Shown here one piece after another: positions 2,721-51,379 of a stretch of 64,000 bases of DNA. The translations under genes were made by a program, and so were the position numbers. The notes beneath the pieces were generated by a model, which was given only the letters and a program-made list of their open reading frames with translations, made no database searches and had not been told where the DNA came from. The stretch's first letter is position 1. The number at the start of each line of letters is the position of its first letter. Origin of the DNA: Isoetes taiwanensis (taxonomy: Eukaryota; Streptophyta; Lycopodiopsida; Isoetales; Isoetaceae); contig JAJEKV010000063.1 in NCBI GenBank assembly GCA_021234155.1, positions 3,409,536-3,473,535 of the forward strand, given 5' to 3'.

Positions 2721-2739
2721 TTGATCACATGTTTGAAAA

Positions 2740-3740: not shown

Positions 3741-3759
3741 CCCTAACATTTTTTTTTCT

Positions 3760-5870: not shown

Positions 5871-6030
5871 ACAACCCCAATTCCTAAAACCATAGACTAT
5901 ATCCATCGCCGCTATGCCATCTTCCTCATCGCCATCGCCATCGGTAGCTCACGCTCGTATCGCCATTCTGCCAAATCGCCCATCGCTGGAGGAGGAGGGG
6001 AAAAATTTTGCCCAAGTACCATATTGTAAA

Positions 6031-6134
6031 TTCAAGGCATATGGTGCGCCGCCATTTCGGCATGCCATTACCCGGCTAACGCCCGGTCGCGGGACCATAC
6101 ACACATGCCGTATTGGCATCCCATATGCCTTGAA
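6031..6134. repeat. Fold-back hairpin
   Basis: TTCAAGGCATATGG at 6031-6044 is exactly complementary in reverse to CCATATGCCTTGAA at 6121-6134. A second pairing block, CGGCATG at 6058-6064 with CATGCCG at 6104-6110, lies inside it, so the roughly 104-base segment can fold into a long interrupted stem. It could be a small fold-back element or a hairpin RNA precursor. Nothing in the sequence decides between these. Confidence 0.55.
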
Positions 6135-6139
6135 CTGGT

Positions 6140-7365: not shown

Positions 7366-7369
7366 TATC

Positions 7370-8938
7370 AGTTTTGGTTGCTAAACTTGAGAAAAAGTGT
7401 ATTGCTTTGTGGACGTTGGACAGTCCCATCCCTCCTTGTATTCTGGACTATCTATGGAAGATTCTTCTGCATGGCAATACCACGAAGTTGCTTAGTATCC
7501 CTATCGAAATTCACGTCTCTGCTTCAAATGCTTGGGATGAAATTATTACAGGGTTGTAAAAACACTTATTTTGGTGGAATATAGCTAAACTATCCATGCC
7601 CGGAAGAATCACTATGGCTAAATTTGTTCTAGTAATACTTATGTCTATATGGCATCTGCATTAATAGCTCCTCAGTGTGAGATGGAGGAGATTGTGCATA
7701 TCGTCAGGACTTTTATTTGAGGTGGAAATGAAGCAAGAGCTGTGGGCAAGGTAGCTTGAAAGAAGTGCATTACACCTCAGGCAGTTGGCGGTCTTGGAAT
7801 GTTGGATTTTCACCTTCAAAGTAAGGTGATGATATTGAAGTTATTTGGAGGATTCTCATTAGTAAGCATGATTCTCCTGGCCTGAGGTTGCTGATACAGT
7901 CGATTTAGCATTGACTTTCATTTCATAAGGCCACCATTAAGCCTCTCCTTCCTTGGACTTTGCTTTCTAAAGGGGTTGCTTGCTGCTTGGGACATTGCTA
8001 GGTCTCTTTTGCATTACAATCTTGAGGCGTGTCTTTAATTGTCTACTCCATGCTGGTGGATTCCTTTGTAGGACACTCCTGAGAATGTTCTTCTAAGTGT
8101 TGTTGTTCATCCAAAGACACAAGACGATGGATAGTAGTTGGTATAAGCACCATTGCAGCTTGATATGAGTCTAGTCATCTCATGTCATGGAAAGCATTTA
8201 GAACAAAATTCTTATTGTACAGATGGGATAGAGTAATTTGGACTCGTGTTGTTGCATTGTTGCCACAGGATTCTGGCCCACAAATTGAAGTAACGGTATG
8301 GGATTGCCATCAGGGTATCAAGCCAGGGCGCTTTGTTTCTTCTGTATATAAAGTGCTTTTACATTCTGAAATCTTGCTTCCATCTAATAGGTGGCATCTT
8401 CAGGTCCCTCAGCCACAATGGAAAAGTGTTTAAAACATGAATGGGATTTCAGAGCTTTGTCCTGGGTTGAGAGTATTGAGCATTGTTTTTTCTTATGTGA
8501 GTGGCTTCGGCAGGCATGGACTTGGTTGTTAATCCTATTTGGCATGTCTCGATCTAGCCAGCAACTTCTGCTCGCTATCTATCCTGATGCATGGCCCAAA
8601 TGCCAGAAACGAGCTTTTCATCTTGGATGTGGATGGCTTTTATGGTCGATTTGGAAGAGAAGGAGACTATTTATCTTTAAGAGCATGGATACTGCAGATG
8701 AGATTCTTCTTCAGTGCATACGGAATAAAATTATTATGGCTTATAATAATTGTTCTTCTCTTGATCAAGAGAAGAAAGTACTGATTTGGCATACTTATCT
8801 TCAGATTCATTCTTATGCATAGACAGGTGGTTGTGCTCAGTTGGATCAGTTTATCCACTGGGGTTATAATCATGTCTTTGCATTTTATATTGTTATAATT
8901 TTGATTGGTAAATAAAGCTTGTCATCCTTCAAAAAAAA
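7370..8938 (+). pseudogene. 5'-truncated LINE, reverse transcriptase C-terminal part
   Basis: This is the broken 3' portion of a non-LTR retrotransposon. Around 7580-7680 the translation reads WNIAKLSMPGRITMAKFVL, the LSL-GRI type motif of the thumb region in plant LINE reverse transcriptases. From about 8391 to 8820 the frame encodes a C-terminal zinc-binding-type region (zf-RVT): it contains SIEHCFFLCEWLRQAW followed by GWLLWSIWKRRRLFIFKS, the Trp-rich tail usual for these proteins. The body needs several frameshifts, has internal stops and lacks the endonuclease and the catalytic reverse transcriptase core, so it is dead and 5'-truncated. It ends in a short A run at about 8930-8938 following AATAAA, as expected for target-primed insertion. 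I could not identify a target-site duplication. Confidence 0.75.
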
Positions 8939-8939
8939 T

Positions 8940-10440
8940 ATGTGCTTTAATTTCCATCTGGCCTTCATAAGGGCGACCATTTTCTCTAGTAATGCACAGG
9001 AATTTGTTAGAGGTCCCTATAGTACTTGCTTTTAGAGGGAAAAAGTTGGGCATGGTTCCAAATGGAGTACCGAATTTCTTTTTATCTGTACTAGTGATCA
9101 TAGTTGTTAAGCGGATTATTCTTCCTATCTAACCCTTTGATAAATATATATCAGACGAGAGAGAAAATTAGAAGGGAAAATGAAGGAACAAAATGATGGA
9201 AAAAGTGTGCTTGATTAATGGCAAACTAAGGGCAAGGACATGCGCTATTGCAGTGCCAAAAAGCCATGTCTGAGCTTCTTTTTGGCATTGCTAAACAAGG
9301 TCCATGAAGAAATTGCTCTCTGTTGCGATATGCAAAACTTATGCTAGCCTTTGCTGAATTGGTAACCTCCCACTCCTCGTCCCCGTGGAGCAAATCAAAA
9401 TCGACAAAAACAGATAACATTTGCTCCAAAACTCGATACCAGAAGACGCAATGCCCAAGCTTACTTGCGAATCTCATCATGGGCAAAGCAAGGGAAGAAT
9501 TGGCAAAAATTTGTTGGTGCACTAGAGCTTTACCAGCTCGTTTTGTATATGTTCTGGATAGTTTTGGGACATTTTGTGTGCCAGAGCATGCCCATTAACG
9601 GGTGCTCACACTTTCAATGGTGTCTTAACCATTGCCTTGTTATATATATTGTTGTATTAAATTGGAGTTAGTTAGATTGTCCTCTAGGAAAAATGCAACA
9701 AAATGAAACCTTAGTAACCAATATTTTCCATTTTCACCAACAAGCCTTAAAGAGATACTATAACCGTGTAATTTTAAAATTTGACACAATTAGATTGTCC
9801 ATAATTGGAGGTTCATGTTCATCTTGCACCATTTCAAATTGACGGAAATGTTATTAAACTGGTATTGCATTATTAAATGTTCGATGTTAATATTGGGTTT
9901 AAATGAATCTTTGTGGTAAAAAAATATCATGGAACACGTTACAGTTCATTTTGCATTGGATCTTCTGCTGTTAAGATTCTTCAATCAATTTTGTTGTAAC
10001 AGGTTTGGAATCAAAGAAATGCGAGAAATAAATATGTGCGCTGATGCTAAATATGACTATTGGATCATGCCAACCTGGATGAGCCAAGCATAGATGTTGG
10101 TTATTGAAAGCACTTCTCATTGCCTCACCTATTTGCCTGGGTGTGTAGAAGTAACAAAATTTGAAATCTTAGTCTGGAAGGCCCTGTAGTTGGCGTCATG
10201 AAAAACGAATTTCTTGAGGAACATGCAGAATAGCGATTCGCATGACGCAAGGGTGTGGAAATAAGGTTCTCCAAGATGTAACCAATAACTACCCCCAATA
10301 TGTGTTGAAGCAGGTGAAGATGATTCCTTCACTAACACCAATGGATTTTCTATAACACCAATGGATTTTCTAATGTGTCTACCTTTTGCTCAGCATGTTT
10401 GTTTTATGTGAGCATTATTTACAACAAATCTCGACTTCAC
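8940..10440. other. No recognised gene
   Basis: Only short unrecognised frames are present. A 10-base inverted repeat, TGCCAAAAAG with CTTTTTGGCA, lies near 9254-9288. The distal part is the upstream region of the multicopper oxidase gene. Confidence 0.35.
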
Positions 10441-10717: not shown

Positions 10718-12931
10718 ATGCAAATTCTATGGCCGATTCTTTTGCTTCTCTTTCTTTCTCTGTGCCCTGTAGTTATTGCAGAGCTGAATGCGAATCTGTT
10801 TGATGTTGCAAGCTTGAGACAGTTTATCCAACAGCTTCCTGATTTGCCAAGAATCAAAGCCTACAAGCAGGTACATGCAGAGCTTTTTGTTCCAGCAAAT
10901 ATCAGCATCGGAATGCATCATGTCAAATGGGTGAGCCATTAATTTTTGTTTCCCTGCCAAAATATGTGTATCTTTTTCTTACAACCGCCACTTTTGTCAG
11001 CACTAAAATTAGTTTGTTTGTCCAACTTTTGATGATTTCTCCAACATCACTTTTTTGTGGATGTAGAAATTTCATCCTGATATTCCAGCAACGACAGTGT
11101 TTGCATATGGGCAAAGCAAGGATGAAGCAACAGTTCCAGGGCCTATAATAGTGGCCAGAAGAGGGATTCAAACACATGTTTTGTGGGAAAATCATCTGCC
11201 AAAAGACCATATCTTACCCATCGATAGAACTATAGCTATTGCAAGTCCAAAAAAAGGAGTACCGGCAGTAGTTCATCTACATGGAAGCCTGTCTGAACCA
11301 GAGAGTGATGGCAACTCCAATGCTTGGTTTACAGCTAATTTTGAAGAAAAGGGTTCAGCATGGAGCAAGCAAATGTATTCTTACAGCAATATTCAGCTGC
11401 CTGGTACTTTGTGGTATCATGATCATGCAATGGGGCTTACTAGGGCCAACATTCTTGCAGGCCTTTCAGGAATTTATGTTCTTGAAGATCCTCAATTGGA
11501 GAAGCCCTTTAAGCTGCCTTCTGGATCTGAATATGATAAACTCATGCTCATTTGTGATAAGGCCTTCTACAGAAACGGATCTATTTACATGTCAACAACT
11601 GGCAACAATCCTGAGATACATCCACAATGGAATGTAAGCATCTGTTTCATATATTTTCTTCAGAGTGGAAAGCTATTTGACATTGACAACACCTCTAATA
11701 TGGTGCCCCCTACTTTTCTCATAAAAAATACTCTTTACTATTTAACTACTACTGCTGGTCATGATACTGCTTCAAGCTTTACACTATTCAACTAGTGCTG
11801 GTCATTTCAGCATACTTTTTCAGCAGATTATGCAAGCCTACATAGTCATTCATAATTCAAGTATGTTTTAGTCTCTCATCCATTTTGCTCTCTTGTTTGC
11901 AGCCTGAGTACTTTGGTGATGTGATAATAGTTAATGGCAAAGCATGGCCTTACTTGAAGGTCCGGCGCCGCAGGTACCGGTTCCGCCTTGTCAATGGAAG
12001 CAATGCTAGATTCTTCAAACTTGCGCTTAGCAATGGCCTCAACATGACCCAAATTGGGTCAGATGCATATTACTTGCCTCGTCCAGTTCTTCAAAAGCAA
12101 ATACTTCTGGCCCCTTCTGAAATAACAGACTTCATCATAGACTTTGCAGAGTGCGCAGGGCAAGAAATTATTTTAACTAATTCTGCTCCATATCCATTTC
12201 CTGACGGAGATCCAGTAAATGCCCAGAATGGACATGTTATGAAATTCATTGTAGATCATATACCAACTGAGGACTCAAGCACGATTCCAAAGTTCCTAAT
12301 TCCCATTCAAAAGCTGAAAGTTAAAGATGTTGCCAAGATTAGGTATATCACTATGTTTGAGTATGAAAGTTCCACAGAGGAACCTACACATTTGCTCCTA
12401 AATGGATTAAGGCCGGAGTCTCCGGCAACAGAGATCCCGACATCAGGAACCACTGAGCTATGGCACATAATCAACCTGACTGATGATAACCATCCTTTGC
12501 ATATGCATTTGACAGGGTTTCAGGTGATGTCAGAACAAAAGCTCAGGAATGTGGATGAGCTCAGAAATTGTTTGCAAAAGAAGGCTGCTGAACAATGCAA
12601 TGTATGGAGCTATGTTAAGGGCCAAGCTAAAAGAGCTTCCAAGAATGAAAGGGGATGGAAGAATGTGTACAAGATGAAGCCTTCTCATGTGACTAGTTTT
12701 CTTATCAGGTTTTCCACTCCGAATGGGGAGCCATTTCCATTCAATGCTTCTGCTGAGCCTGGATATGTCTATCATTGTCATGTAAGCACTTCTATTCCAG
12801 AAATTATAGTCCCTTTTCTCCCTCCCCCTTGTTTTTTTGGTTCTGTCTAACCAATTCAGTGTTGGCCTCAGATTTTGGATCATGAAGATAACCAAATGAT
12901 GAGGCCCTTCAAGATTCTGTCTTGGCCTTGA
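10718..12931 (+). CDS. LPR1-like: Multicopper oxidase, LPR1/LPR2-like
   Basis: Four exons read through cleanly: 10718-10930, 11067-11633, 11903-12781 and 12872-12931, all introns GT-AG and all phase 0, giving about 572 residues, close to the roughly 580 of Arabidopsis LPR1. The start is the ATG before a hydrophobic signal peptide (MQILWPILLLLFLSLCPVVI). Copper motifs are present in order: VVHLHG and LWYHDHAMGLTR in exon 2, NHPLHMHLTGFQV in exon 3, and the C-terminal YHCHILDHEDNQMM spanning the exon 3/4 junction, which supplies type 1 and type 3 ligands. In Arabidopsis the LPR proteins are secreted ferroxidases that act with phosphate limitation to restrain root growth; the same role here is inferred. 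I see no frameshift or stop, so this is the one host gene in the window likely to be functional. A bacterial CotA or bilirubin-oxidase-type name would describe the same fold; the plant introns favour LPR. Confidence 0.93.
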
Positions 12932-13946: not shown

Positions 13947-14089
13947 TACAATATGTAACCATACCTAATACTATATGCACACAAAGGATTAGCATGATTG
14001 TCGTCGCGACCAAAAACTCCATGATAAAAAAACTTCGAATGTCACACACACAAGAGAGAGCTGGGGCCAAGAACAACATGCCATATGAA

Positions 14090-14440
14090 GATACTATGCA
14101 TGCATGTCTAGGCACATGCATGCACAACCAAACCAATGGTTCACAGAAGATACCATGCATGCATGTCCAAGAATATGCATGCACCAAACCAAACCAATGG
14201 TTCACAGAAGATACTATACATGCATGCCCAAGAACACGCATGCACCAAACCAAACCAAGAAGATACTATACATGCATGTCCAAGAACATATATGCACCAA
14301 ACCAAACCAATGCTTCACAGAAGAAATGCATGTCCAAGAACACGCATGCACCAAACCAAACCAATAATTCACAGAAGATACTATGCACGCATGCTTAAGA
14401 ACACACATGCACAAAACCAACCCAATGGTTCACAGCACAA
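14090..14440. repeat. Minisatellite, about six 52-61 bp units
   Basis: Units starting at GATACTATGCATGCATG begin near 14090, 14149, 14210, 14262, 14323 and 14377. Each contains a CATGCATG box, AAGAACACGCATGCACC, AAACCAAACCAATG and TTCACAGAA. Units 3 and 5 are shortened by internal deletions. Open frames crossing the array on both strands follow from the repeat, not from coding. Confidence 0.9.
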
Positions 14441-15156: not shown

Positions 15157-15377
15157 TTATACGATATACTGCAAGCATTGAAAAAACATTGCAAAAATAT
15201 GAACAAGATGTTGGAAATCGACATCCGAATTCAAGCAATTGCTAGGGCAATCGCAGTGCCTGCACCTCTCAAATAATCTATATTTATGCCAAGCTAGGAT
15301 GACATTACTTTCAAATCTAGCTACGTCCAAGAACGTTGTCGCTGGCCTATGTAGCTCTGCAAGAACGTTGGCCATTT
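15157..15377 (-). pseudogene. C-terminal end of split LRR receptor kinase
   Basis: Read on the minus strand from 15377, the frame gives ANVLAELHRPATTFLDVARF, exactly what should follow the kinase-end motif PSMREM that stops at 23038. Removing the intervening 15378-23037 transposon and one ATTT copy rejoins the codons in frame. The true stop is not certain; the frame stays open to 15157. This piece and 23038-24906 were one gene before the insertion. Confidence 0.85.
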
Positions 15378-15769
15378 GGGTGCAAAATCGGTACTGGGTA
15401 GCAGAAATCACCGTCCAGACGCCGCTTACAAGTGCTTAAAATCGGTGTGTTTTAAACACGACGTGCGTGATTGAAGTATTGACATGTAGGGTGCTTGGAT
15501 CAAATGACAAATGAGAGAATCATGAACATGTTTGGTGCGGAAAACATGAATGCACAGTAGCCCATATATTCACGGATGGCGGGCTAACCCATCTTAATTC
15601 AAGCAAAATGGAGGGACTAATTGTTTCCAAGAATTGCACGAACCGAAATTCAACAATTTGCCCTCACCAATTCAAAGAATACACGTAAATCGGGATAGAT
15701 GAAACCCAATTCCTCTCCCCGCTTCAATTTCTGAGCCATTGATGCGACAAGGAAGAGAGATCGAGGCGA

Positions 15770-18200
15770 GATTGTATGCAAAGAAGGTAGCAATGAAGAA
15801 GAATTCCCCTTCTAAAGATTCACCCTTCAAAGACGAATAAGAAATTGAGGCCGAGTGGACCAGCGGAATAAGAGAAATTTCAAAGAGAAATTTATGAAGT
15901 ATTCAACCAAATTAGTACAAATGTTGATGACAATGACAAAGGCCGCATCATTGACAGTCTTCTTTGGAGGGCAAAGAGATTTACCAATTGCTTCTATATA
16001 AAGAAATCTAAGCGGTTACTATGGCCGAAAGCAAATGGTGAAGAATTTGAAGGAAACAATGCAAGAACATAAGTTTGAGAGGAATTATGACATGCTTCGT
16101 GCAAGGAAGTCCACCACGATAATGGCAAAGAAGGTACAAATGGTGTCAAGCCATTGAATCAGCGAGAAGTGGCCGATTGCTCAAAGATCCCCAAAAAACA
16201 ATTTCAAATGCTTTTCAAAGAAGGGTGCAAGCTAACAAAGGGGAAGGACCTTGGTCAATGTTCGGGGAGGAGGAAGCGGATGGATAGCATGTTAGATCAC
16301 AATAGAGAAGTCGTTATCAAGTTCTGACGAAAAATACAAGAGTTTCTCCATACAAGAAAGACGGAGGAAGTATGTATCGAGAGGCAGGGAATAAAGATGG
16401 AACATCAATTCACCTTCTTGAAGTCACCAAGTAAGTATTCATCCTATATTGTAGGGTTCATTATATGTAGCATTTATTTGGCATTCACACGATTTCCTGC
16501 AGTTGCAATTCTACCTCGGGTTTAGAGAGGAGAATCCTCATATCAAAATTGCATTGCGGACTTTTGAGAGGTTGAAACCTAGTTTTGTAAGGAGGATCGC
16601 GTGAGAGGCATACATCTTTGTTGCATTTACCACTTGAAATTTGAATACATCATGCAAGGATTGAACTGAGAAAATCGGTGGAGTTCATGACAATTGCAAC
16701 CGCCATGTGAGATTTGTGGCCCTGGCCCGAGAATGTGCGAGCCAAGGAGCATACAATCAAGTGTACCAGATGATTTATGGAGACAAGTGGTCCGCAAACA
16801 AAGGTGATGATGAGGAGTGGTTTGATCATAACCGCTTGATGTTGGCGTGTAAAAAATGTGGGTTGGATAGAATTAGAAAATGTCCACAGGAAATGGATGG
16901 CACGGGTTCAAGACTAGTTACTTGGAAGACATTTGAAAAGCAACCCGTGGACCGGGACGGTTCAGGGATCCAAGAAAGGCTTTGAGGTACAAACTGCCTT
17001 GAGATTAGTACGAATGACGTAAGTCCCAAAGAATTTCAAGAGGAAGTGAAGAAGGTAATATTAGATTTTGTTCCACACAATTACATAGCACATTGGCGAG
17101 GCTATCCGGTTTTAAAACAAGCGGTGTGTCATCATTTCGGAAGATACAATTGTATCACGTTATTGACTTTCTTGAAAAATTACAAAGATCAAGATCCGGG
17201 GATGAGCCCCGGTCAATGCACCGGTATACGGACCAAGTTTCTATACTTGTTCACATAACATATAGGCATGACAAAAGTCTTGATATTCCTGTTCTGTCTG
17301 ATTTAAGAAGACCGTCCAAAGAAGAGAAAAAAAACGAAAGGTTGGAGCGGATCGGGAATAGACTCAACAACGGTAGGAAAGATCATAAAAGAGACTCACT
17401 TTACATTTCCGATGATAAAGTGCATGACTCATTATTTGTGGAACACCGCCTACAAAAGTATGTTGCATGGCTTAAGGAACAGGAAATAGAGTATGAGAAG
17501 CATTGGTTTTGGAGTGATGGCTGCTCATCACAATTCAAGTCGAAAACCTTTTTTTTCTTAGGCGGTACTTCACAATCAATGACAAGGAAATAGTGTGGAA
17601 CTACTTTGCCAACGCTCATGGTAAAGGTGAACATGATGGTGCGGTCTTTGTTATCAAAAAGGTCGCTAAGTAAGGAACAACTCAAACCCAATGGTGTGCA
17701 ACCGAGGCATGCTAAAGATATTGTAAAATTTACGTGTACATATTTCAATGATCTACCGGTCGATGAAACAGATGAGATCAAAAGATATTTTTGGGAAATT
17801 GAACTGTTGTTGTGGCAAACATGGAAGAATATGAAATTGAAACACTCAAAGGCACAAAGAAGATTCATCAGTATCGGACTGTCGTGAGGACTAGACCAAA
17901 AGCAGGGCTTGCTCATAGATGCACATCATGTTTCTCGCTTTCGTTTTGCATGGATCATAATTGGGACTCTGCATCAATACAGTAGATTAGGAAAGTGGGA
18001 GGTAACCCGACTTAAAACCGGGAGTTGAGAAGAAAAAGGAGACTCTTGAACAAGCCAATGAATGGATCGATAATTTGGTAGAGGTAGGTGACAATTTTGC
18101 GGTGAATCTTTGAGGTAGACAATTCGAGAGGGTATGGACTTCTACATCCTCAAGTGCCTGCAGAACCCAAATGCACACTTGAAGATTCATACGAAGATGG
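15770..18200 (+). pseudogene. Sola-like DDE transposase, decayed
   Basis: Conserved blocks appear in order through several frames. An intron with donor CCAA/GTAAGT (near 16430) and acceptor TTCCTGCAG (near 16502) precedes a block reading NPHIKIALRTFERLKPSFV. Then come LACKKCGLDRIRKCPQEMDG, the run HNYIAHWRGY, YISDDKVHDSLFVEH, and at 17500-17540 HWFWSDGCSSQFKSK, followed after a frameshift by VWNYFANAHGKGEHDGA. Further down, HRCTSCFSLSFCMDHNWDS resembles the C-terminal Cys-rich part. The SDG-SQFK and HGKG-DG pair marks a family of plant and animal transposases with a DDE-type catalytic core. Several stops and frameshifts (for example at the T run at 17551-17558) make this copy inactive. It starts just inside the left end of the element and reads towards the middle. 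Confidence 0.75.
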
Positions 18201-18837
18201 ATGGGGGCAAAAATTTGGAGTGCATGAGGTTATCTTAAGTGGATTGTATTATCAATTCTTGGGTAATTTCAAGTATATGTTGCTCACTAAACAACCCAAA
18301 GCCTCAGGTGCAACGTACATGTGGTAAGATATCCTAAAATTGATATGGAAAAAGTAGAAGGCCTGACGACATGTACAAATTTCCACAGAGACCCATGAAA
18401 AATTATGGCCAGTCTCCCAATAACAATGTAATTGTTTGACACTTAACGAAATTGATGTTATTCTTTTCAAGTGATTTGTTGTTCCAAAGACCTAAGCATG
18501 TAAGCACATATTTTTTTATATATATTAACAATAGTGAGGATGCACAAGGGGTGGTGTGCATGGACACGCATTTGAAATGAAGATTGAATTGTTGTTTATA
18601 AGAATGTAGATTTGTGACATTGGAATAAGGTTCAATTATTTATTTTGGTACCATCACTATCCCAACATTCTTGGCAAAAATATATTGTCAAGGCGTTTCC
18701 TCGATGTGACATGTGTCAATTCGGTAGTCATCTGAAAATATTGCGGCACGGTTCTGAATTAATTGTTATGTGAGGTTTATCGTGCAATTGGACGCCTAAG
18801 CCGCGGGACTTAAGCGGTAAAGCCCACAAGCTCACGC

Positions 18838-19310
18838 TCATACAAGCTCTCCGCCAATTCATCCATCAGCCAATTCCCTCCTGCACTCAGCCCAATCCGC
18901 ATTCCTCCCAATCCTCCCAAGATGAAGCGAGCACATAGCGAGGAGCCGGGAGGTCACCTCGGGCGGCGCTTACTAAGCGTAGAAGAGGTGTTCCCTCCAC
19001 TCTTCCGCCTCTGCCGGGAAGTGCTTGCGCCTCCCACTCTGGCTTCTTCTCTCCGCCCACTCTACTCGCCTCCCGGTTTGAGGAGTCGATTCCGATTCCT
19101 CATCTTCCATTCCTATGAGGAATCGAGAAAATGAGGAATCGGAAAATAATTGCGGGAATATGTCACCGCAAGCGATCACGCGAGGGATGGATAGGCTAAG
19201 AAGAGGAAGAGGAAGAGGAAGAGGAAGAGGAAGAGGAAGGGAAGAGGAAGAGGAAAGGCGAGGAAAGCCGACTTGGAGGAGCCGTGGCTTTCCTTAAAGG
19301 TACATACAAA
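18838..19310 (+). other. Shared first-exon-like module, copy A
   Basis: A pyrimidine-rich leader (CTCCGCCAATTC) leads to ATGAAGCG at 18922, then sequence including GAAGAGGTGTTC, GGAATCGAGAA and GAGGAATCG, a (GGAAGA)n run at 19200-19255, GAGGAGCCGTGGC and a GTACAT splice-donor-like end near 19302. The same order and many of the same words recur at 39680-40075. Neither copy gives a recognisable protein. The conserved ATG-to-donor structure suggests a first exon of a transposon-borne gene; in copy A the reading frame breaks between 19115 and 19134. Confidence 0.55.
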
Positions 19311-19424
19311 TTTTCATTTGTTTTACGTTTTCATTTTTTTCGTTTGTTTAATCTTCGTTTGTTTAATTTTTTAGTTTGTTTCATTTGTTGCGGATGGAGA
19401 ATGAATGCGAGGAGCATGAAGATG

Positions 19425-19530
19425 AAGAAGACATCCCTTGAAGAAGACACCCCCTGAAGAAGACACCCCCTTGATGAAGAAGACAACCCCCTTTGAAGAA
19501 GACACCCCTTTTGAAGAATACACCGGCCTC
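19425..19530 (+). repeat. Tandem GAAGAAGACACCCCC repeat
   Basis: About five short units of the type GAAGAAGACACCCCCT, with small length changes, run from about 19430 to 19520 inside the 7.66-kb transposon. Confidence 0.8.
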
Positions 19531-19759
19531 GGGGCCAAAATTTTGTAAAATTTTTTGTAAAAATTTTGTACATTGGCCTAATGGCCTTTTTTTTATAAAA
19601 AATCTTGTTTACCATCAAACTTTGTTGTAACTTTGTTTCTTGTTTCATTGAGATCTCTTCTTCTTCATCTATGAAATGTTATTTTTGTCTATCTATCAAA
19701 TTTATGAAGTTCGAATTCCTGTGCAGTCCATTCAGATTCTGCTTGAATGTAACAGTGCT

Positions 19760-20060
19760 CTAGCTCTTTCATTAGTTTCAAACACTAAGCATTTTAATCA
19801 CTTTCAGCAGTGCCCGTTGAGTAAACAGCTTTGAACACACGAAAGCACTATGCAATAAATGACTACATTTAAGCAGGTTATATGGCTTAACAATAAGCAC
19901 TGCACCTTACCTGCATGACAGTAAGCACATGATGACATTAAGCAACTACATAAAAGTATCTGTCACTGCAAGACAATAAGCAGTATCTGCCATTAAGACT
20001 CAAACCATAGCACTTGCAGGCAATTTTTTTTTTAAGCACTTGATAAGTTTTAAGCATCCC
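19760..20060. repeat. Dispersed TAAGCA(C) motif cluster
   Basis: TAAGCA or TAAGCAC appears at least eight times in this 300-base stretch, mostly on the + strand, including TTTAAGCACTTG near 20032. It resembles the AAGTGCTTAAA words at the ends of the same transposon. Possible roles are internal protein-binding repeats or the 3' region of the minus-strand gene that ends at 20296. Confidence 0.45.
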
Positions 20061-20295
20061 TTTCAGTCAGCATTGAAGTATATATAAACAATATAGCAAA
20101 AACTTATAGACAAGTCTGCATTGAACTACATAAACAATATAGCAAAAACATTCTTAAATTAAGATAAAGATGGTACATGAAAAGTGTAGGATTCCTTGGC
20201 CTAAATAAATGACAAACAGACCAATAATCATGGAGAATGACAAAGCGTCATCACCATAAACCTTCTCAATTCCTCCTTCACAAACCTGGCAGAAT

Positions 20296-22889
20296 CTAAA
20301 TCAAGTTTTTCGAAAGTCTTTCCAAGCATAGCTTCATAATCTTTCTATCTGTCTTAGGCCAAGGCTTGTATCTATGTGTATTCTTCACCAGTAACTTCAT
20401 TTCTTCCTCAGTCTTGGCCTGCAGTATTTCTTCTATCTTTGGGGTGAGTACTGGTAGCACTTCATCATGGACATCCATCTTGAATGCAGGTACCCGCAGA
20501 AATTTCCAGGGACTGCTAAGGTAAGACTTGTACAATGAATCATCAAGAAGCAAAGTCTTACCCGAGAATCTTGGGTATGACTCATATATTTTTCCAAGTG
20601 GCTTCATCATGATCGGACGGCCCAGGGTTTGTTAGGTGGTGAAAAACCGGTTACGCACACATTTTCCCCGTCCCCATACAAATTCAAATCATCCCTCAAA
20701 TCGACATAGTACTTGCACACATCTTCCACATTGGAGAGTTGCATTGATGACCATATACCAACACAACACTTCAGAACAAAGTCTTCAAGAAGAACATACG
20801 CTACGGTCTCGAATATCACTTTCTTTACGCTTAGTGTATGTCATTGTCAATCCCGCTTCCAAGCGTATGTGTTCATTTGCACCAAATGTTTTACCAACAC
20901 ACCATTTAAATCCAAGACAATGAGTTTATCTTTGGGCGGCAAATCAATATTTAGTACGTTGGAACATCCCGAATACCTACACAACAGAATTACTACATGA
21001 ATAAATAGATGAAGATGAAAATGAAAAATGGGTTGAATGTGGAAACCTTTATCAGACAATGAGGATTCTCGACTCCAACAGAATGAACTGTAATCCTACA
21101 ATTAATGCAACAAAAGAAAATCAATAATATTCAATGTTTTAATCAACACTAAGTTGTGGCCTTCTTGCCCAACAATGCCCATACCCCTTTCCGGGTTAGT
21201 AATGGCGTAATCACTTGTTGAAGATCGGGCTCACCAAACTTGAGGGCCCGATTACGCATTTTCTTGAACACACTTCGATATGTGTGGTGTCATGATTGAG
21301 GCCCTTCCGCATCTTTTGCATAGCTACTTCTTGTTCTCTTTCTTGTAGCCCCGAACAACTACTTTGCTATCCTCCACCTTACCCCTCTTTGTTCTTACGC
21401 CCTTTCCTTTTACGCAAATATTGACCAAGTTGCCCTCATCCGATGGAATTACTCCCTCAACTTCCTTAGGTGCTTCGATTATTGGCCTGTCCGTTGTTTT
21501 TTCCACAACCCCAGTCTTTGTGTTTACGACTTCTTCTATAGCTTCTTGGGCGACTTCTTGGGTGGTGGTGGTGGTTCTGTTGTTGCAATCAAATCGATCA
21601 CAATTGATTTGCTCCTATAGGACTTTGCAGGTGTTGTGCATCTTCAAATGGCACCATTGTCCTTCTTTGAACCCTCAACGGTGAGACCTCAATTGCGGAT
21701 CCGGATTAACACATTCTTTTTGGTGTACTATTTGAAGCACACAGCAACATGGCCAAAACCTAGCTTCGTCAAATACACCCTCCGGCACCTTTCGGGGCAA
21801 CCATGAATACATTGTCCTCCTCTCAACAATGAACAACAAGCTATATGATACTCATGTTGGCAATTCGGTGCTAAACTTAACCATAAGCTTTAGTGAATTC
21901 CAGGACCACATCTTAAACATGTATAAAATGAATCTTCCACTAGCAACTTATCTCATTATAATAGTAGAGATGCTAAATGTTCTTGAGGAGTATCCATTTT
22001 CAGCTTCCACAAATTGTTTATGTAGAAATCACGAAGTCTCGTTCTTCTTCGAGAACTTTTAACTCCTCCTCAAGTTTGAGTTTCACGTTTGACCCGCTCA
22101 TTAACGGATGTAGGGGTTCATTGCTTTTTGTACCTTGTTCATTGCCAAGTTTCCATCCGACGGTCGCTCCAAATCTTTAATTTACGCCTCCAACTCACAT
22201 GTTGGATTAAGCGAACTCCTCCGTTTTGTAGCCAAATCATTTGTGGCCTGTCTTAAAACCTGTTTTTTCAGCCTCTTCCAACATCATTTTCTCGTAATTC
22301 AGAGGCCTTCTCATTGCCTTTCAGCTCACTTCCCTCTTTTGCTTCCATTCTTTGTGATAAGTAAAAGCGATATTCCAATCTCCTGACTTTGCATTCTCTG
22401 AAAGGTTTTTATGTTTTCATCACATGCACCGACCTCATTTGATCCAAATTGCCACCTTTGGCTTTGCCTTCATTTCCGAGTTTTCCTAACATGTGCTACA
22501 ACATGCGCCTCTGTTTTTACTTGTCTATTGTTGTGGTATCTTTGACATTGCACGCAACAAAATGCAGCCCGGTTTTTTGTGTTCCTCAGGTGCAAGTATT
22601 GATCTAGTGCAATTTTCAAACGCAAAAGCAAAGGGCCAGGTTGCTTTCTTACTTATTTGTTGTGACAATTCTTGTAGATTTTTCGGCAGAGTGTTTCCAA
22701 CTTCTCTTGAAGATGCTCCTTTGCACAGTGCCATTTTATCTTTCCCTTGTTCAACTTCTTTGTCCAAACAGAATCCCAATCTCGATCCGTGACATTATTT
22801 TCCAACCAAGCTTCTTCCTCGTGGGGCTTCACCCCCGAATTGCACAGACCTCTGATGGTGTGAAAATCATCCGCGCTCCATGCCTCCAT
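20296..22889 (-). pseudogene. FCP1/HAD-type phosphatase-like gene in transposon
   Basis: This is a multi-exon minus-strand gene. The likely start is ATG at 22889 (MEAWSADDFHTIRG), 148 bases inside the right end of the transposon. The first exon includes WLENNVTDRDWDSVW and a Lys-rich helix, and may end at a GTAAGA donor near 22650. Middle exons are hard to define; 21670-21320 gives a basic segment with KGKGVRTKRGKVEDSKVVVR. The C-terminal part, 20975-20296, is an FCP1-homology (small CTD phosphatase) domain: DKLIVLDLNGVLV, VGIWSSMQLSNVEDVCKYYV, GKTLLLDDSLYKSYLSSPW and a final charged helix. The first motif is DLNGV where active phosphatases have D-x-D-G-T/V, so the second Asp is Asn. Small frame breaks occur near 20850 and 20610. 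A few plant proteins carry a similar DLNG form, so loss of activity is likely but not certain. Confidence 0.7.
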
Positions 22890-23037
22890 CGTCAACAGTG
22901 AAACACTGATCTGAGTTTTTGCGCCCAGGGGGAAAGGAGGGAGAAGGGCGTGACGGGCTTCGACGTCCGCGAGTTTTAGCACTTAAAGTGCTTAAACGCT
23001 TCGCCAAAAGTTGTACCCCACTAGCGATTTTACACCC

Positions 23038-24906
23038 ATTTCCCGCATACTTGGTCTAGTACGTGGATTCTCATTTGTGCACAACAACGCTAGCCTCAGA
23101 ACAGTAAGTATTTCCTCTTCTTCCTTTCCTTGATAATCCCTTATCCTGGGGTCAAGGACCTCGTCAACAGACTCTGTTTGCTGGATAACAAGCCTAACAC
23201 ACTTCCCTAAATCCACATCTTCTGAAGAACTGGAATCAACAGTTTTTTCCGGTAATTAGTTCTAGAAGCACCATTCTGAAGGCATAAACATCAACTTTTT
23301 CGTTCACCTTCATAGTGTAATAATAGTCTGTCAGGGAAATTATGCATGTTAAATGAAAATTTAAAATTTCAGAGATATTTTGAGGTCTCTGGACTTACCT
23401 CGTGCTATGTATCCGTATGTGCCAACAATAATTATAATAGATACAGATAATCCATCTTTGTCAATCAATTTTGCTATTCCGAAGTTTGTGATGCAAGGCT
23501 CCATGTTAGAGTGTAACAACATATTGCTGGATTTGATGTCACGATGAATAATCTGGGGATGAATATCATGGTGCAGGTATGCCAATCTATGTGCAGTGCC
23601 TAATGCAATGTTGTATCTTGTTTTTCAATCAAGAGCAAGTGTCCTATGCAGAGCATCTCTGAGGCTTCCTACTTCCATGTACTCATATATGATTTAACCA
23701 ATTCCATTCTAGGCTGAGTACTCAATGATGTTTATTAGATTTCTATGTTGTAACTTGCCTACAGTTTCTAACTCCCTTTCAAATGTTGCTCCTACTGTCT
23801 TTTTTGGATAGCTTCAGTTTTGTTACTGCAAGTTATTGTCTAGATCTGCTAAGGACTTTTTATATTAATCCATATGCACCTTTTCCTACAACATTATTTG
23901 TGGCATGCAATACTTCCGTTGCAGACGGTTTCCTGGAACCGTTGATAAAGAATACTCTTGCTTTGCCTTTCTGGCACAATGAGACTATTGTTGTATAAAC
24001 AATTAAAAGACAAAGTGCAATTGCTCCAAGAATTATCCCAGCAAGAATGCCTTTTTTAGCCCCTTTTTTCTTTTTCTGATGTAGTCACAGTGCAGGATGT
24101 ATTTGAAGTGCACAACTTCTGGTTGCTAGCAAATGACAGAGGATAAGAAATCAGGAACCCTTTCCATGATTGGGGAACATCTTCTAATAAATTGTTATAT
24201 GAGACATCTACACATATCAGCTTTGCCATGTGATCTTCTAACTTGTTATGTCACAAGTCCATCTGTTCAAGTGAAATATGTCTAATTCAGCCGGTATATT
24301 CCCAGTCAGCTTATTGTAACTTAGATTAAGCATATTTAAATGCAAGTGCTCAATTTCTCGAGGTATGGAACCTTCCAGTTCGTTATCTCCCATTCTCACC
24401 TCCACAAGAGAGAGATTGCAACAAAAAAAAAAATAAAACTTGGGATTTCGTCTGCCAGTCTATTCCCTTCAAGGATTAGAGTTTCCAAAATTTTGAGACT
24501 ATTCATCTCTTGTGGGAGATTGCATGCAAGAAGGTTATTGCTCAAGTCCAGATAGACCATTTCTGTGCAGTTGGCAAACTCTCTGGTGGAATCTTAGATC
24601 CATTTACCAAGTTAAAAGAGATGTCCATATATTCCAGTTTTGATTGTGAGCAAAATCTAATTTTTGAAGTTCTTGAAGAGCAGATATTTGGGAGGAAATA
24701 CTTTCACTTGGAGATGGGCAGGAGAGATTAAGAGCACTAACCATGAGGCCATCGGTGTGGCAGGAAATACCGACCCACAAGCACGGACTAGAATCAGAGG
24801 CATTCCAAGAGTGTAGCACATCTGTGGGATTTGCAACAACAATTGAAAAAGCTCTCTTGATCAAAATGGAAACGTTTGCAGAAACAAGCCATCTAGTTTT
24901 GTACAA
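23038..24906 (-). pseudogene. LRR receptor-like kinase, main part
   Basis: Reading leftwards from 24906, the N-terminal cap gives DVLHSWNASDSSPCLWVGIS, then about five leucine-rich repeats (for example NMLNLSYNKLTGNIPAEL), a transmembrane segment near 24050-23980 (ILAGIILGAIALCLLIVY), and a kinase domain with ATEVLHATNNVVGKGAYG, IIHRDIKSSN, GTYGYIA and PRTRPSMREM. It would have been a plasma-membrane receptor kinase related to subfamily XI/XII types. Breaks: frameshifts around 24090 and in the P-loop region 23600-23900; the Mg-binding DFG is NFG (23478-23486); an extra A in ITGK near 23250 shifts the frame; and a 7.66-kb transposon cuts the C terminus at 23037. An intron follows GTYGYIA. It is clearly non-functional. 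Confidence 0.9.
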
Positions 24907-24929: not shown

Positions 24930-25120
24930 TATCTTGATAATCTTCTGAATTGCATCAGCCCGTTATAGTTGAACCTAGTTCACATCATGGGGGATGTGTC
25001 CATTCACATTCTCGTTCATCAGAAAGAGTGGCTAAAATGTCAGACCCAACAGGCGCAGATAAATGCCTTCATATTTTGACTTCAAGTCTTGACATTGCCC
25101 TCATTCTCTATAGTTGTCTA
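24930..25120. other. Upstream flank of the receptor-kinase pseudogene
   Basis: No gene is seen. The stretch ends in GTCTA (25116-25120), the left target duplication of the Copia element. Confidence 0.5.
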
Positions 25121-25672
25121 TGTTGGAGTTCATATCACAATTTGTTTATTAATCTTTAAGTGCATATAGTAGAAGACCACAGACAATATCTGTACATACT
25201 TGAGAAGACAGAGAAATGATCTAAGGTTGAAGTCAGAAGGATAAGAGCAGGCATTTGTAGATATGCTCAGATTCATATTTGATCTAAGCAAATGAAAGAG
25301 TTCTTAGGTTTAGCAATTGACCTAAGAAAATGATATATTCCTATGGTTATTTGTTAATCATTGAAAAACAGTTGCGAACCATTGAATTAAAACAGGGGAA
25401 TATTCGAAGCCTCGACGAGATGCTTGCAGCCAAATTTGGTTTGAACTGGCTCGGTCCAATGCAAAACAAACATGAAGATTGTGTTGAATCTGAAAACCTG
25501 CTAGCGGTCTGGCATCACCGCCAGACTGCTAAGATTAAAAGAAGATGTAAGATAGGTTATAATTCAGTTGGTGCCACGGTGAGCAGATTGATTCGAAACT
25601 GTGGAAAGATCAAAGATAAAAGGGTTTTGTGAATTGAATCTATATTGCTACAGTATCTATTATAGTTCTAAA
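25121..25672 (+). repeat. 5' LTR, first part
   Basis: Matches 36475-37026 of the 3' LTR and ends at the A after which the Helitron begins. Both LTRs hold an open frame starting MIYSYGYLL (25330-25632 here, 36684-36935 in the 3' copy) of 100 and 83 codons, with many amino-acid differences and a length change caused by an indel. It is probably not a protein gene. Confidence 0.93.
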
Positions 25673-26490
25673 CTAGAAACGTGTGCCCGGCGATGCCGGG
25701 CATTAGTCATGGATGTGTGAAATGAGTCGAGGTGATAAAATTTGAAAGTGTTGTAAAATATGTAGATGTAATCATACTCCTAGGTTAATATATGAAGGGC
25801 ATTGTGTGTATGTATGTGGCCTGGCCTGCATACGATTGAACAAAAGGCATAGGAGGGTGGAAGGGAAGGACCTTAAGATTTATATTCTTATTTATCTCAA
25901 AATCAATTAACCGAATAATTTAAGGAGTAGATTTTGTATATCACATATACGTATCTACAACTTTAAAATTTTTGGGTACATAGAGAGCATATAGTCTTAG
26001 AAATATTGTTAGCTAGCACATCAAATTAGAGAGAAATCCCTTTGAGTAATGTATGTCGGAATAAAAGTGGTTAATACATAGTTTAACTGTATTAAAAAAA
26101 AGAGCGTAATTTCTATAGGTGCAATGGTGTTTGGAGCTGCAAAAGAGTTAAGATAGATACAGAATGGTTAGGGCAAATATTTTTTTCACAAAGGGTCATT
26201 TATGATATAGAAATACAATGCTTAGGGCAAATATTTTATGCACAAATTGCGTCTTCCATTGGCTCTATAGTTTAGCATGCTTCGTCCTTTAATCTGAAAT
26301 TGAAAACATTTATTTGATAATAGATAGATAGCATATGTAGGGTATGTGTTAACTTGGTTATCGATAAAAGGTTCTAGATTTAAACATTAAATATAAATTT
26401 ATTCAACAAATGTTCGCCTACTTCAAAGTTCTAAACATGTCAAAATTCTATGCTAAACACATCCCGAAAATTATGCATGAAATCAGATTT

Positions 26491-26598
26491 ACACAAAGTA
26501 ATTCTTAAGCACCTCTTTTCCCCAAGAGGCAAGTCAAAACAATTGACACAAAGTAATTCTTAAGCACCTCTTTCCCCAAGAGGCAAGTCAAAACAATT
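26491..26598. repeat. Two-copy tandem repeat in Helitron
   Basis: The unit starting ACACAAAGTAATTCTTAAGC and ending AAGTCAAAACAATT occurs twice back to back (about 54 bases each), with one T inserted or lost in the CTTTTCCCC run. Confidence 0.9.
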
Positions 26599-27399
26599 CT
26601 TTGATCTCAGAACCCTTGTCCACATTATAGCACTCCAACAAAGATATTAAGAATGCTATTATGGGGTTTCCTTTGGGATTCATGTCTTGATCGCATCATG
26701 TTGAAACATTTGAAATTGGGAGATCAAGCTATGGAAATTTCTAAACTATGACAACTCTATGCTTTTAAATTGCTTAGCTCTATTTGAACAGAGCTAATCT
26801 CTAGAAAGCATATGCACTTGCAAAATGGACACGTCTAACTTTAATGTTTTTAGAAATTTTTCCTTGGTCATAGGTTTTCCAAAATCCAAAGAATTAATGT
26901 TGAGCAACTTCATCAATATAATGTTTCACCTTGAATTACTCGCAACATTTAGCTATTGTAATCCCCTTGGAGTGACAAACTTTTTCTTAATTCCTGGATC
27001 ATATAGGGGCTCTTTGCTAGCTGCATTGTTACATTCTTCAAGTGGCCAGACGACAAAGTATAGTTTTGTTGTGCTCTTTTCCTTATATTGAATCCCATAG
27101 ACCCGCTGGTGCCCGTGGACGGCATGTTTCAAACATGCATGTTGTCCATGGCATGCTTATATTACATTCTCAATCGCCACGCTAAATTGGAAAAATAAAT
27201 CTATATGCTAATCTTTCTCTGCAAAGGTAGCAAGGGCAGGATGCACCTGTCAAGTTGCAGAACTACCTCCCAAAAGACAAACCTGCATTATAGAATAGAC
27301 TTGAAGATATTAGAGATTAAATGCACAGCAATAAGAATGCAGTTGCAACATACCATCGAAATGTGCCACCATCTTGCAGATGATCTTATTTATTTACCA

Positions 27400-29240
27400 T
27401 TTCAAAAGACAAATCTCTATGCTAAACTCTCTTTGCATGGGCAGTAAGGAGGAAAGAAAGTACCTTGGAGTGCGAAAATTGTAGAACATTAACTTCATGA
27501 TGGATGCTCTATATGATTTGCGTATACTGATTTGAACCAGTCTGCAATAGTTCATCTGAAGAATGGACATGTACCTGGTGAAGAAGTATTTCAAGTATGT
27601 ATATCAAACAAAAGATGGCAAAATTTCCCCACTCATACATAAAACAAAGGAAAAAGGAAAATTGCACACACTACTTAAAGCATACCAGTTGTATGAAAGC
27701 ATGGCAGACACTATATGACTTCTTTGCGCACATGATGCAAATTGCCAGAAATAGCTGCTTGAACATTACCAGAATAATGTGCTTCCACATAATGAATGGT
27801 ATCCCAAAGTAGATGACAAAATCTGCAACCACAAGGATTAAAAAAATTTGATCATTGGGATGGTTGGGAAAGAAGAAACATCATTAAATTTTATGCTTTG
27901 GTATAAATTCTTCATTGATATGCAATATCTACAGTCATGGACAAAAGGACAACAAAAAATGATGGTATTCAAAACAACATAAAAAAAGACGCAGCAATAT
28001 ACATGTATAGTCTGCTCTATTAGAGAAAGTACAAAATGTGAAAGCCCTATCTCAAAGCCCTGCTTCTATTAAACATGCAACGATGAGCATCTCAAGCATG
28101 CAGCACAAAAGAAAAAGTGAAATCATCAAAATTGCTCAGAATAGATAATTGCCCTTTGTGCTCACGGGAATAACAATGCTAGCAAGGGTTTCTAGATCAA
28201 TTTAAAGATTTTGAAAAGCACAAAACATTTTGTAACATACATAAGCAAAAATAATTCATACCTTGCGATTCTGGAACAATACATAATAAGCAATGCCATG
28301 ACTCTCCACGTAAAAGTCTAGTTGTGCAATATGCTGAAAAAAATAGTATCTATGCTGTGTCTGTAAACATAAAAGAAAAAACAATAAATTCAGAAGTCAT
28401 TGTATTTACATGTTCTCATGTATTAGACGAAAAAACAAAACGATGAGAGGAGTGAAATAGTACCTCCATAGCTTGATCTGCATTGCTCTATCCTTATCAA
28501 TCCAGTTCTCTAGAGGACGCTCATAAATGGAACCTTATACAGTAAAAAAAAGAATGACTAAGAGAGAGCAAACTTAAAGAGAGAAGTATTCATAGAAAAC
28601 CTTAGAAGAAGACGAAATGAGGAGAAACATGAAATCCCTATTTAAGCAAAAAAACTCCAGTTGAATCTGTTGCATCTTGTCCTATACACCACCATTGGTA
28701 TTGCTTACGACAAAAGAAAAACTTCCGCAATAGAATGTTTGCTTTTTATCAGGTTGTTGCAGGATACCAATTCTTCAGACACAATCCCTAGAAAGAGACT
28801 AAGCAAGTTCATTCAACGAATCTTCATAAATAAAAGAAGGATCATGAAAACAACATCTTACGAAAACCCTACTTTTGACTAAGGATCTTGAAGCAACTAC
28901 ATGTCCACCTGTTATCTGTATATGGATATTATTAGAGGTAATATTTTCACTTAATGGAAGCTATTAACATTTTCACTGAAGTGTTATAGAATAAGAATTA
29001 AAACAAAAGAAGAACTTAGCAAGATTGTGCCACTTCAATCACACCTCATAAAAGGCAAAATAGCGGTAAACCAGCAATTTCTCTGCCTAGCTCAGTATAT
29101 TTTGCAGCCAGGAACTGGTAGATTTATTCATTTTTGATACCTACCAGATATATTGGATACGCTAGCAACACAAATAAAAGTGTGAACCACCCATATGTTG
29201 TGGACCAATCTAAATTCTTCTATATGGTCTCTGTTAGCTG
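27400..29240 (-). pseudogene. Exon-like fragments of unidentified gene(s) in Helitron
   Basis: Several short minus-strand open stretches have plausible GT/AG borders. Near 29225-29150: WSTTYGWFTLLFVLLAYPIY, a membrane-like helix before a GTAGGT donor. Near 28540-28465: SIYERPLENWIDKDRAMQIK before GTAC. Near 28355-28260: YYFFQHIAQLDFYVESHGIA, ending at GTATGA. Near 27815-27760: VIYFGIPFIMWKHIIL after GTTGCAG. Near 27590-27470: MNYCRLVQISIRKSYRAS before GTAC. All lie on the strand of Helitron sense, as expected for captured exons. I do not recognise the protein and cannot say whether they come from one gene. Confidence 0.4.
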
Positions 29241-29640
29241 CATTTCATTATGTTATTTTCTCCACATACAGATGAACATCAGTGTATAATATTTAAAAAT
29301 CCTAAGAAATTCAATAGAACAGTGTATAAAGCTTACGGGATACCATGAATCAAATGGGGTTGGCTTTCAACATGCAAGAATCAAATGCTTCAGCTTGAAA
29401 AGCTCAAAGCCCAGACCGCACCTACGACAGCATTACAAAAAGGACTGCTGACGCTGCAATAACAGATGGTGGAAAGGCCAGAAAAGAGATGTCTGCACAT
29501 CCTCACAATAAAATATTAGGTAAGCATTCGGAAGGAAATGGCTCTGCCTTTCTTGCCCACAAATCATCACCTTTCAACCTGCATTTCCTTCATAAATCGT
29601 CAAAACCAAGCGTGTGCATGTAATAAGAAAAAGGTGTTAC

Positions 29641-29940
29641 GGCACTGATTCTCCACTCCAGAGTACTCGGGACCAATAGCTCCATGACTAATCAGTTGGC
29701 TGTAGTTTTTGTTGGAAAATCTTTGTGACACTCCACCAGCTACTTCCCCTTTCATCAAACTTTCAAGCTGCCATAGCTGCAAGTTCAGGATTTTCTTTGG
29801 TTAGACATGAGTATAGTTGAAAGGCATCCATTTGTGAAAGGAACGCCTTACCTCAATATATCCTAGATTCTCAGGATCTAGCTCTTCCATAAATAATCGT
29901 TCTGTATAAAGATTGAAATGCTTCGGCATCCTACGTTACA
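29641..29940 (-). pseudogene. RBOH-like: Captured RBOH (NADPH oxidase) exon fragments
   Basis: Two minus-strand exons fit a plant respiratory burst oxidase homolog. The first (about 29930-29852) ends MEELDPENLGYIE at a GTAAGG donor. The second (29776-29641) follows an ACTTGCAG acceptor and starts LWQLESLMKGEVAGG, continuing NKNYSQLISHGA. MEELDP-NLGYIELWQLE is a hallmark of the region after the EF-hands in RBOH proteins. Upstream of MEELDP the expected Ala-Glu-rich sequence is in another frame, so at least one base has been lost. No heme-binding, FAD or NADPH regions are present. The fragment lies within the Helitron and points in its sense direction, so it is best read as gene capture rather than a local RBOH gene. 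Confidence 0.75.
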
Positions 29941-30196
29941 TGCGCTCCTCTGAGGCGGAATGCCAAAACGTAGATAGGCAAGCATAGACAGGCTGTAGAC
30001 GAAAAATGAAAATTCAAAATTGGTGTTGCTGCATCCCGCAAGAGGGAGAATGCACGATCTTGCAGAGGCCCGCAGAGGACCCAGCTCAAGAACCAGTTGC
30101 GCAGGCACAGAGAGCATGGAGTGCAAGAAAAGATTTGCATAAAATTGGCATTCAATGCCGACAACCTGCGTCCCGCAAGGGGACATGCAACCGGAG

Positions 30197-30234
30197 AGGG
30201 AACGCCGCATGCGGCGTAAGATGCGGCGTTCCCT
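30197..30234. repeat. 14-bp inverted repeat near Helitron 5' end
   Basis: AGGGAACGCCGCAT (30197-30210) and ATGCGGCGTTCCCT (30221-30234) are perfect inverted copies separated by 10 bases, ending 39 bases from the 5' terminus of the Helitron. The arms are much more GC-rich than the surroundings. Confidence 0.9.
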
Positions 30235-30273
30235 GGCACAATTCCCAACACGCTCCCAAAATAAAAAAGAAGA

Positions 30274-30505
30274 TGAACAAAGGTGCATTATTCTTTGAGC
30301 CAACGGTTTTGTATGATTTGCTAAGTTGAATTTATTAATGTGCCTATACTAAGAGATTGGGATTGATCTAAGAAATAGATGTAATATGAGGTGTTCTTTG
30401 GACATTAAGAATTAATGTCTTTATGTGGTCATAAATTGTTGTGAAACAATGGTTGCATTGTTCTAAGTGAATATTTGTTTTATTCTTGACTCTGAATTTC
30501 TTACA
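30274..30505 (+). repeat. 5' LTR, second part
   Basis: Matches 37025-37256 of the 3' LTR with three visible substitutions and ends TTCTTACA directly before the primer-binding site. Confidence 0.93.
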
Positions 30506-30532: not shown

Positions 30533-31455
30533 ATGGCCAGTAGGTTTGGTGCAGGATTGCTAAATGCAATAGATGTGTTCAAGGGAGATTTAGGGTTCCA
30601 GGTGTGGAAGGAGAAAGTCAAGCATGTGTACAAGTAGAGGCGCTGTGGGAATTGGTTGAGCCTATTGAGGGGAACAACAATATAAGAGGCACTGCAAGCA
30701 GAGGAATGGCTATTGCAGAAGAAGGAAGTGGTTCTTCTAATGAAGAAACTGAAGGAGTTCAGACACGAGATGTAAGTGTGACATCTAGAGGGTTGACATT
30801 AACAGATAATGCAAAAACAAGAGAAGCACAAGGGATTATTATGAGCAAGGTGAGCTCGAGTATAGTCTTGAAATTAAGGGGTATGAATCCTAGTCAGATG
30901 TGGAACTACATGCTTCTTACCTATGAGGAAAAAACATCCTCACAAATAGATGTGCTGGAAAATAAATTAAGGAGGCTGAAGTTTCATGACAAGGATAATG
31001 TCAAGGATTTTTTTTCAAACATTTGATAATATTATAACTGATTTGGAGGGAGCAGGAGTCTATTACACACAGCAACAACAGGTTCTGGCAATTTCAAGGG
31101 CAGTAACTAGTCTTGGGAATATAGCTATGTTTATAAGAACTTTGGCAAAAATAAGAATGGAAGCTGAAAGAATGTTGAAAACAGAGATAGAACAGAATAG
31201 AGTGATTGAAGATGATGAAGCAACTCAAGTCTTGTTTATAAAAGGAAAGGGCAAGGATGAAAATAAGAAAAGAGGGAAAATAGGTCCATGCTACAACTGC
31301 AACCAGTATGGCCAGTTGAAGATAGATTGTCCTAACATGACAAAAGAAATAAATTGCTATAATTGTGGAGGAAGGGGACACTTTGCATCAAACTGCTCAT
31401 CTCCAAAAATGTTCTCAAAGGGAAAAGAAAAGGGAGCAAGAGGAAATTTAGCAGC
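30533..31455 (+). pseudogene. Copia gag, frameshifted
   Basis: The likely start is the ATG at 30533 (MASRFGAGLLNAIDVFKGD). A stop at about 30634-30636 forces a change of frame near 30604-30640, and a T run near 31010 needs another shift. The product would be the capsid/nucleocapsid protein. Two CCHC zinc knuckles lie at 31289-31330 and 31355-31396. The second, CYNCGGRGHFASNC, is canonical. In the first, CYNCNQYGQLKIDC, the His is replaced by Gln, which should weaken zinc binding. The basic stretch after the knuckles (KGKEKGARGNLAARGRGRG) is typical of nucleocapsid tails. Gag continues into protease at about 31500. Confidence 0.85.
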
Positions 31456-34400: not shown

Positions 34401-34465
34401 GTAAAAAGCAATCTTCAATAGCACTTTCAACAGCAGAGTCAGAATATGCTGCAACTACTCTAGCT

Positions 34466-38815: not shown

Positions 38816-38819
38816 CCAT

Positions 38820-51375: not shown

Positions 51376-51379
51376 AGAT

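Follow-up and report, generated by a model that had tools for sequence, protein, structure and literature searches.

A two-gene transposon at the locus

The DNA analysed here, referred to as the window, is a 64-kb stretch of Isoetes taiwanensis contig JAJEKV010000063.1. Positions 15378-23037 of the window are occupied by a DNA transposon of 7660 bp, from a high-copy family, with two convergent genes, both broken in this copy: a transposase gene and an accessory gene of several exons, whose protein has, from the N terminus, a conserved domain, a RING-H2-like finger and a NIF/FCP1-like domain (Table 1). This convergent pair is common to two distant lineages of elements in the same genome.

An earlier note on this DNA had set the boundaries by inverted ends, an ATTT duplication and a host reading frame that rejoins across the element, and all three were confirmed at these positions. 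Joining the flanks with a single ATTT restores, on the minus strand, a host frame that reads RPSMREMANVLAELHRPATT, with RPSMREM followed by ANVLAELHRPATT at the junction. Read by eye, the interrupted gene may encode a receptor-like kinase; two short pieces of it gave no Pfam match. Among 200,000 random position pairs, none combined identical 4-bp flanks with end bases that agreed at 12 or more of 13 positions, and the exact matches to the 13-bp end pattern in the window are the two element ends. Two measurements are less favourable: a local alignment of the two ends scored 27, a value reached in 5 of 1987 random pairs of 100 bp, and matches to the 13-bp pattern that allow up to 2 mismatches were no rarer than in shuffles (3 found vs 2.27 expected). 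Judged by sequence statistics alone, the ends would be less than overwhelming, and we accept them because other copies of the family share both. The subterminal motif AAGTGCTTAA has just two plus-strand occurrences in the 64 kb, at 15430 and 22986, and a reverse copy at 20032. An inverted-repeat listing of the window omitted the known ends and so provides no evidence either way on inner ends. Counts of stops and frameshifts along the element did not clearly separate the genes from the background.

Table 1. Coordinates of the transposon and its parts in the window
Feature	Position	Strand	Remarks
Target site duplication ATTT, left	15374-15377		Flank comparison
Left terminal inverted repeat	15378-15398	+	21 bp, 18/21 identical to right repeat
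Subterminal motif AAGTGCTTAA	15430-15439	+	52 bases inside left end
Transposase gene, broken	15703-18340 (limits approximate)	+	Start from copies; C-terminal stretch
First catalytic Asp region	17159-17176	+	VIDFLE (relatives: VDFAENY)
Second catalytic Asp	17510-17542	+	WSDGCSSQFKS
Third catalytic Asp	17617-17643	+	HGKGEHDGA
C-terminal transposase stretch	18199-18234		GWGQKFGVHEVI
Part of spacer between genes	18801-19664		GC-rich patch, GAAGAG repeats
Accessory gene, several exons, broken	20237-22889	-	ATG at 22889
NIF/FCP1-like domain	20480-20927	-	Motif I DLNGV (D-x-N), motif IV LLLDDS
NIF motif	20521-20556	-	TLLLDDSLYKSY
NIF motif	20739-20759	-	GIWSSMQ
NIF motif	20892-20927	-	KLIVLDLNGVLV
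RING-H2-like finger, decayed	21800-21930 (limits approximate)	-	Whole in copy L013
Stretch within the finger	21833-21862	-	CQHEYHIACC
Accessory N-terminal domain	22653-22889	-	MEAWSADDFHTIRG...; conserved in second lineage
Subterminal motif AAGTGCTTAA	22986-22995	+	Near right end, within short palindrome 22973-22997
Right terminal inverted repeat	23017-23037	-	21 bp
Target site duplication ATTT, right	23038-23041		Flank comparison

Copies of the element share both ends and both genes

Copies of the window's family were sought in its own genome (1.66 Gb). A query with the right end gave 491 first-look candidates, the best 40 of which, including the window itself, scored at 97-100% identity. We examined 20 copies, taken as the next ones in the list of right-end matches and thus chosen via their right ends. 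All of them start at element base 1 and reach base 7548-7660, with main pieces 89-93% identical, and in all of them the two gene regions are present and convergent, as in the window, with NIF motif I on the minus strand. The left end is common to the 20 copies and the right end to the 16 in which the fetched stretch covers it; the other four stretches (L021, L027, L028 and L031) end before that point, which leaves their duplications unreadable. Four-bp duplications were perfect, and all different, in 15 of the 20 copies and imperfect in L030. Some copies hold longer frames than the window, namely a transposase frame of 427 amino acids (L016) and NIF exons of 198 (L012) and 213 amino acids (L024). 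The spacer part listed in Table 1 was unaligned in seven copies (L014, L018, L020, L021, L022, L025 and L029), in which both genes align. Copy L019 carries an insert of ~2 kb with low-complexity frames that resemble the C/T-rich tracts of the window.

A pair of genes could also arise if two different transposons were present, the NIF-bearing one nested in the other, and one case of nesting does exist within the window. However, spacing and orientation of the genes are mostly fixed, the copies have the same left end and, where readable, the same right end, and the subterminal motif lies near both ends; we consider nesting extremely improbable, although no search aimed at inner ends was made.

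A second lineage carries the same gene pair

A genome search with PF03031 gave 3261 first-look NIF candidates, the best 150 of which were scored. Five loci were fetched from this list, and three of them (L032, L033 and L034) contain a transposase convergent to the NIF gene. L032 is a whole element (1597-9347, 7751 bp) with a TATA duplication and ends that match at 25 of 25 bases (GGGTGAAAGTATGCTAGTGGGTAGC, vs GGGTGCAAAATCGGTACTGGGTAGC at the window's left end); its transposase is 49% identical to that of the window's family, its NIF domain 34% identical (33-34% for the lineage), and its NIF frame is open over 348 amino acids. A script search for an exact end pair in L033 found none. L034 has a second NIF match at 268-681, on the same strand and ~4.4 kb from the first, perhaps from a neighbouring element. 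The remaining two loci, L035 and L036 (79.7 and 81.9 bits), had no transposase within 5 kb, and their NIF genes could be genes of the host, domesticated copies or parts of broken elements.

Pairing was then counted between listed rows of the two genes. When 96 transposase loci (110 rows) of the window's lineage were compared with another list of 150 NIF rows within 10 kb, there were at least 33 convergent pairs, 27 of them 2.7-3.2 kb apart, vs three other arrangements, one of which was convergent but overlapping. For the second lineage, 150 listed transposase rows were compared with the 96 rows of the PF03031 list that score below 80.7 bits; at a distance of up to 6 kb, at least 12 pairs were convergent and none was arranged differently. 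The other 54 rows of the PF03031 list, the strongest among those listed (80.7 bits or more), are probably host genes, and none had any of these 150 transposase rows at a distance of 6 kb or less. These pair counts are lower bounds because all lists are the tops of thousands of candidates; L016, for instance, is among 63 loci without a listed NIF partner, yet it holds a NIF region.

Two explanations by gene capture are affected by these results. The 54 strong, host-looking NIF genes could have provided a source from which a single copy captured an FCP1-like gene once, but the accessory gene is present in 20/20 copies and in a second lineage, and a one-off capture is thereby excluded. This agrees with the earlier argument, made from the layout of the window copy, that the pair is not the product of random capture. 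Alternatively, the capture could be ancient and the gene a passenger that plays no part in transposition; gene capture by transposons does occur, and the function of the accessory protein is a predicted one. Against such a passenger, three domains, their order and their orientation have been kept across lineages whose transposases are ~49% identical, and many of the listed NIF frames are free of stops. We regard an ancient passenger as very unlikely.

The transposase has a DDD triad

The earlier note had seen the relic of a DDE-type transposase at the left; its motifs lie where they had been placed, and the window copy is, as read from them, a DDD-type relic. The start of the gene was inferred from copies with an open frame starting 325 bases inside the left end. 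Among 10 relatives, D179 is nearly invariant and D270 and D312 are invariant, so the third acid is Asp and not Glu. A structural model of the protein contains a predicted RNase H-like core in which the order of elements fits a putatively catalytic DDD triad.

Database comparisons did not place the protein further. Pfam had no convincing match among 12 relatives, NCBIfam none for the three compared with it, and Foldseek alone found none in the PDB at E 0.001. Relatives were sought in viral contigs and in bacterial and archaeal genomes, and none were found. A tree with 11 relatives, in which the window transposase forms a long branch, did not fix its place.

The accessory protein combines three conserved parts

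The ATG of the accessory gene lies 148 bases inside the right end, as the earlier note had proposed, and its C-terminal FCP1 domain and its convergence with the transposase gene were located at the expected positions. That note described an FCP1 gene, which holds for the NIF domain; the conserved N-terminal domain and the RING-like finger had been missed. The N-terminal domain is 37% identical between the two lineages (pairwise E 6e-18); a Myb reading of it was made by eye only and was not supported. The Cys/His stretch is whole in copy L013, which reads CSACGLEF...CQHEYHIAC...CIHGC and matches the RLIM RING at E 3.5e-4; the next-best matches were C2H2 fingers (0.005). Several Pfam RING models match L032, with a best E of 4.7e-4, every one of them below the cut-off. 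A PHD-finger reading of this stretch was rejected, since the decayed copy in the window did not match and the other copies have RING-H2 spacing, and so was a zinc-knuckle reading of CKRCGRASIMTPHISKC, which had no Pfam match and for which the copies use another frame. Searches of a protein database found nothing at E 0.001 with the joined accessory protein of the window and nothing at E 10 with its NIF part.

In the window, the NIF domain needs frame shifts. Neither single window pieces nor a join of whole open reading frames matched the Pfam NIF family. Hand-joined readings did so at E 4.6e-5 and 2.6e-4; of two frame paths made by script one matched at E 6.8e-4 and the other had no match, and none of eight control stretches matched. 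From the window alone the domain is thus likely. The doubt is removed because natural single frames of copies match the same profile (E 2.8e-10 in L012, 7.2e-10 in L024 and 2.1e-8 in L025); PF03031 scores were 34.5-40.5 bits in three copies and 72.4 bits in L032, with a cut-off of 21.8. Compared with solved chains, the L012 domain matched UBLCP1 at E 3.8e-5, its sole match up to E 1.

Whether this domain is an enzyme depends on motif I. The second Asp of this motif is the general acid/base in the FCP1/SCP enzyme family, and competent phosphatases have both Asp residues in a D-x-D-x-T/V motif (DLDET in SCP1-3, DIDYT in UBLCP1). The NIF domains of the element depart from it: motif I is D-L/I/V-N-G-V on the minus strand in all 20 copies and likewise in L032, L033 and L034, and the pattern used had no match in L035 and L036. 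An active phosphatase working on the C-terminal domain (CTD) of RNA polymerase II (Pol II) or on the transposase, as previously suggested, would find support in the nucleophile Asp, the motif II Ser/Thr, the motif III Lys and the motif IV Asp pair, all kept in our own reading of the sequences, and in having the phosphatase UBLCP1 as its closest solved match. Nevertheless, in both lineages Asn replaces the second Asp of motif I, and we consider catalytic activity unlikely. For the same reason a phospho-binding pseudophosphatase appears likelier than an enzyme, so that the label 'phosphatase-like' stands for the domain family and is doubtful as a statement on catalysis. Plant FCP1-like host proteins may also have a D-x-N-G motif, which, if right, would indicate where the gene came from.

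Relation to known transposons

The elements probably form a two-gene cut-and-paste family of the Sola superfamily, an assignment that the earlier note had suggested and that fits by described traits, not by protein comparison. Sola elements have 4-bp duplications, a DDD transposase, lengths of 2-9 kb and variable inverted ends, and are 'not common in flowering plants' (PMC10741241). The window element (ATTT, 7660 bp, 21-bp ends), the 15 copies with perfect duplications and L032 (TATA, 7751 bp, 25-base ends) resemble them in duplication, in length and in inverted ends of at least 11 bp, and the 10 relatives do so in the predicted DDD triad. Unlike the element described here, Sola is presented without mention of a second gene in the Sola section of that article (PMC10741241).

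Pairs of a transposase and a helper are known in plants. PIF/Harbinger elements encode a transposase and, like our element, an accessory protein beside it, which in their case is Myb-like; their duplications are of 3 bp and their proteins are unrelated to those of the element. Mutator (MURA/MURB) and CACTA (TnpA/TnpD) are likewise plant elements with a transposase plus a helper gene, with unrelated proteins and other duplication lengths. FCP1, SCP and UBLCP1 phosphatases (Pfam NIF) share with the element protein the domain family and the order of motifs, and differ from it in motif I (D-x-D vs D-x-N), whereas the element protein has a RING-like finger in the same gene and is transposon-borne. 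A search of the open-access literature on transposons with FCP1/NLI interacting factor found no RING-like and FCP1-type helper described; a description in a repeat database is possible.

A possible role for the accessory protein

The pairing was observed in both lineages, and we think it probable that the accessory protein is a working cofactor of a two-gene cut-and-paste family, probably within Sola. As proposed here, the NIF domain would bind phosphorylated Ser/Thr peptides, of the Pol II CTD or of a host regulator, with poor turnover, while the RING-like finger would act as a module that recruits partners. The protein could act together with the transposase or on the expression of the element, a helper role analogous to that of the Myb-like or MURB-type proteins, and the two domains may thereby make transposition or element expression depend on the state of host transcription.

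More tentatively, these elements might represent a long-lived group of plant transposons whose second protein reads host phospho-signals, such as those of the Pol II CTD, and so helps to set the site or timing of transposition or to protect it. Through its many copies, such a group might have spread FCP1-domain genes across plant genomes, where they are possibly annotated as host genes. If real, a helper of this kind would link cut-and-paste transposition to phospho-recognition of the Pol II CTD type and offer a testable pseudophosphatase. It would also be a warning that FCP1-domain genes dispersed in plants may belong to transposons; NIF candidates in this genome numbered 3261 at first look, and 150 of these were scored.

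Other features of the window

A Copia-type retrotransposon lies to the right of the element. It has frames for integrase and reverse transcriptase (30980-34516), a 3′ long terminal repeat (LTR) at 36474-37256 and a 5′ LTR split into 25120-25672 and 30273-30505 by an insert of 4.6 kb (25673-30272). Read on the minus strand, this insert starts with TC, ends in a GC hairpin plus CTAG and lies between A and T, which is the anatomy expected of a Helitron. Upstream of the transposon are a multicopper oxidase gene with long open exons on the plus strand (11067-12847) and a tandem repeat of six copies of a 61-bp unit (14087-14435). Long C/T-rich tracts occupy 37335-38864, 50634-52575 and 60356-62968 and, given the insert in L019, may belong to a dispersed repeat.

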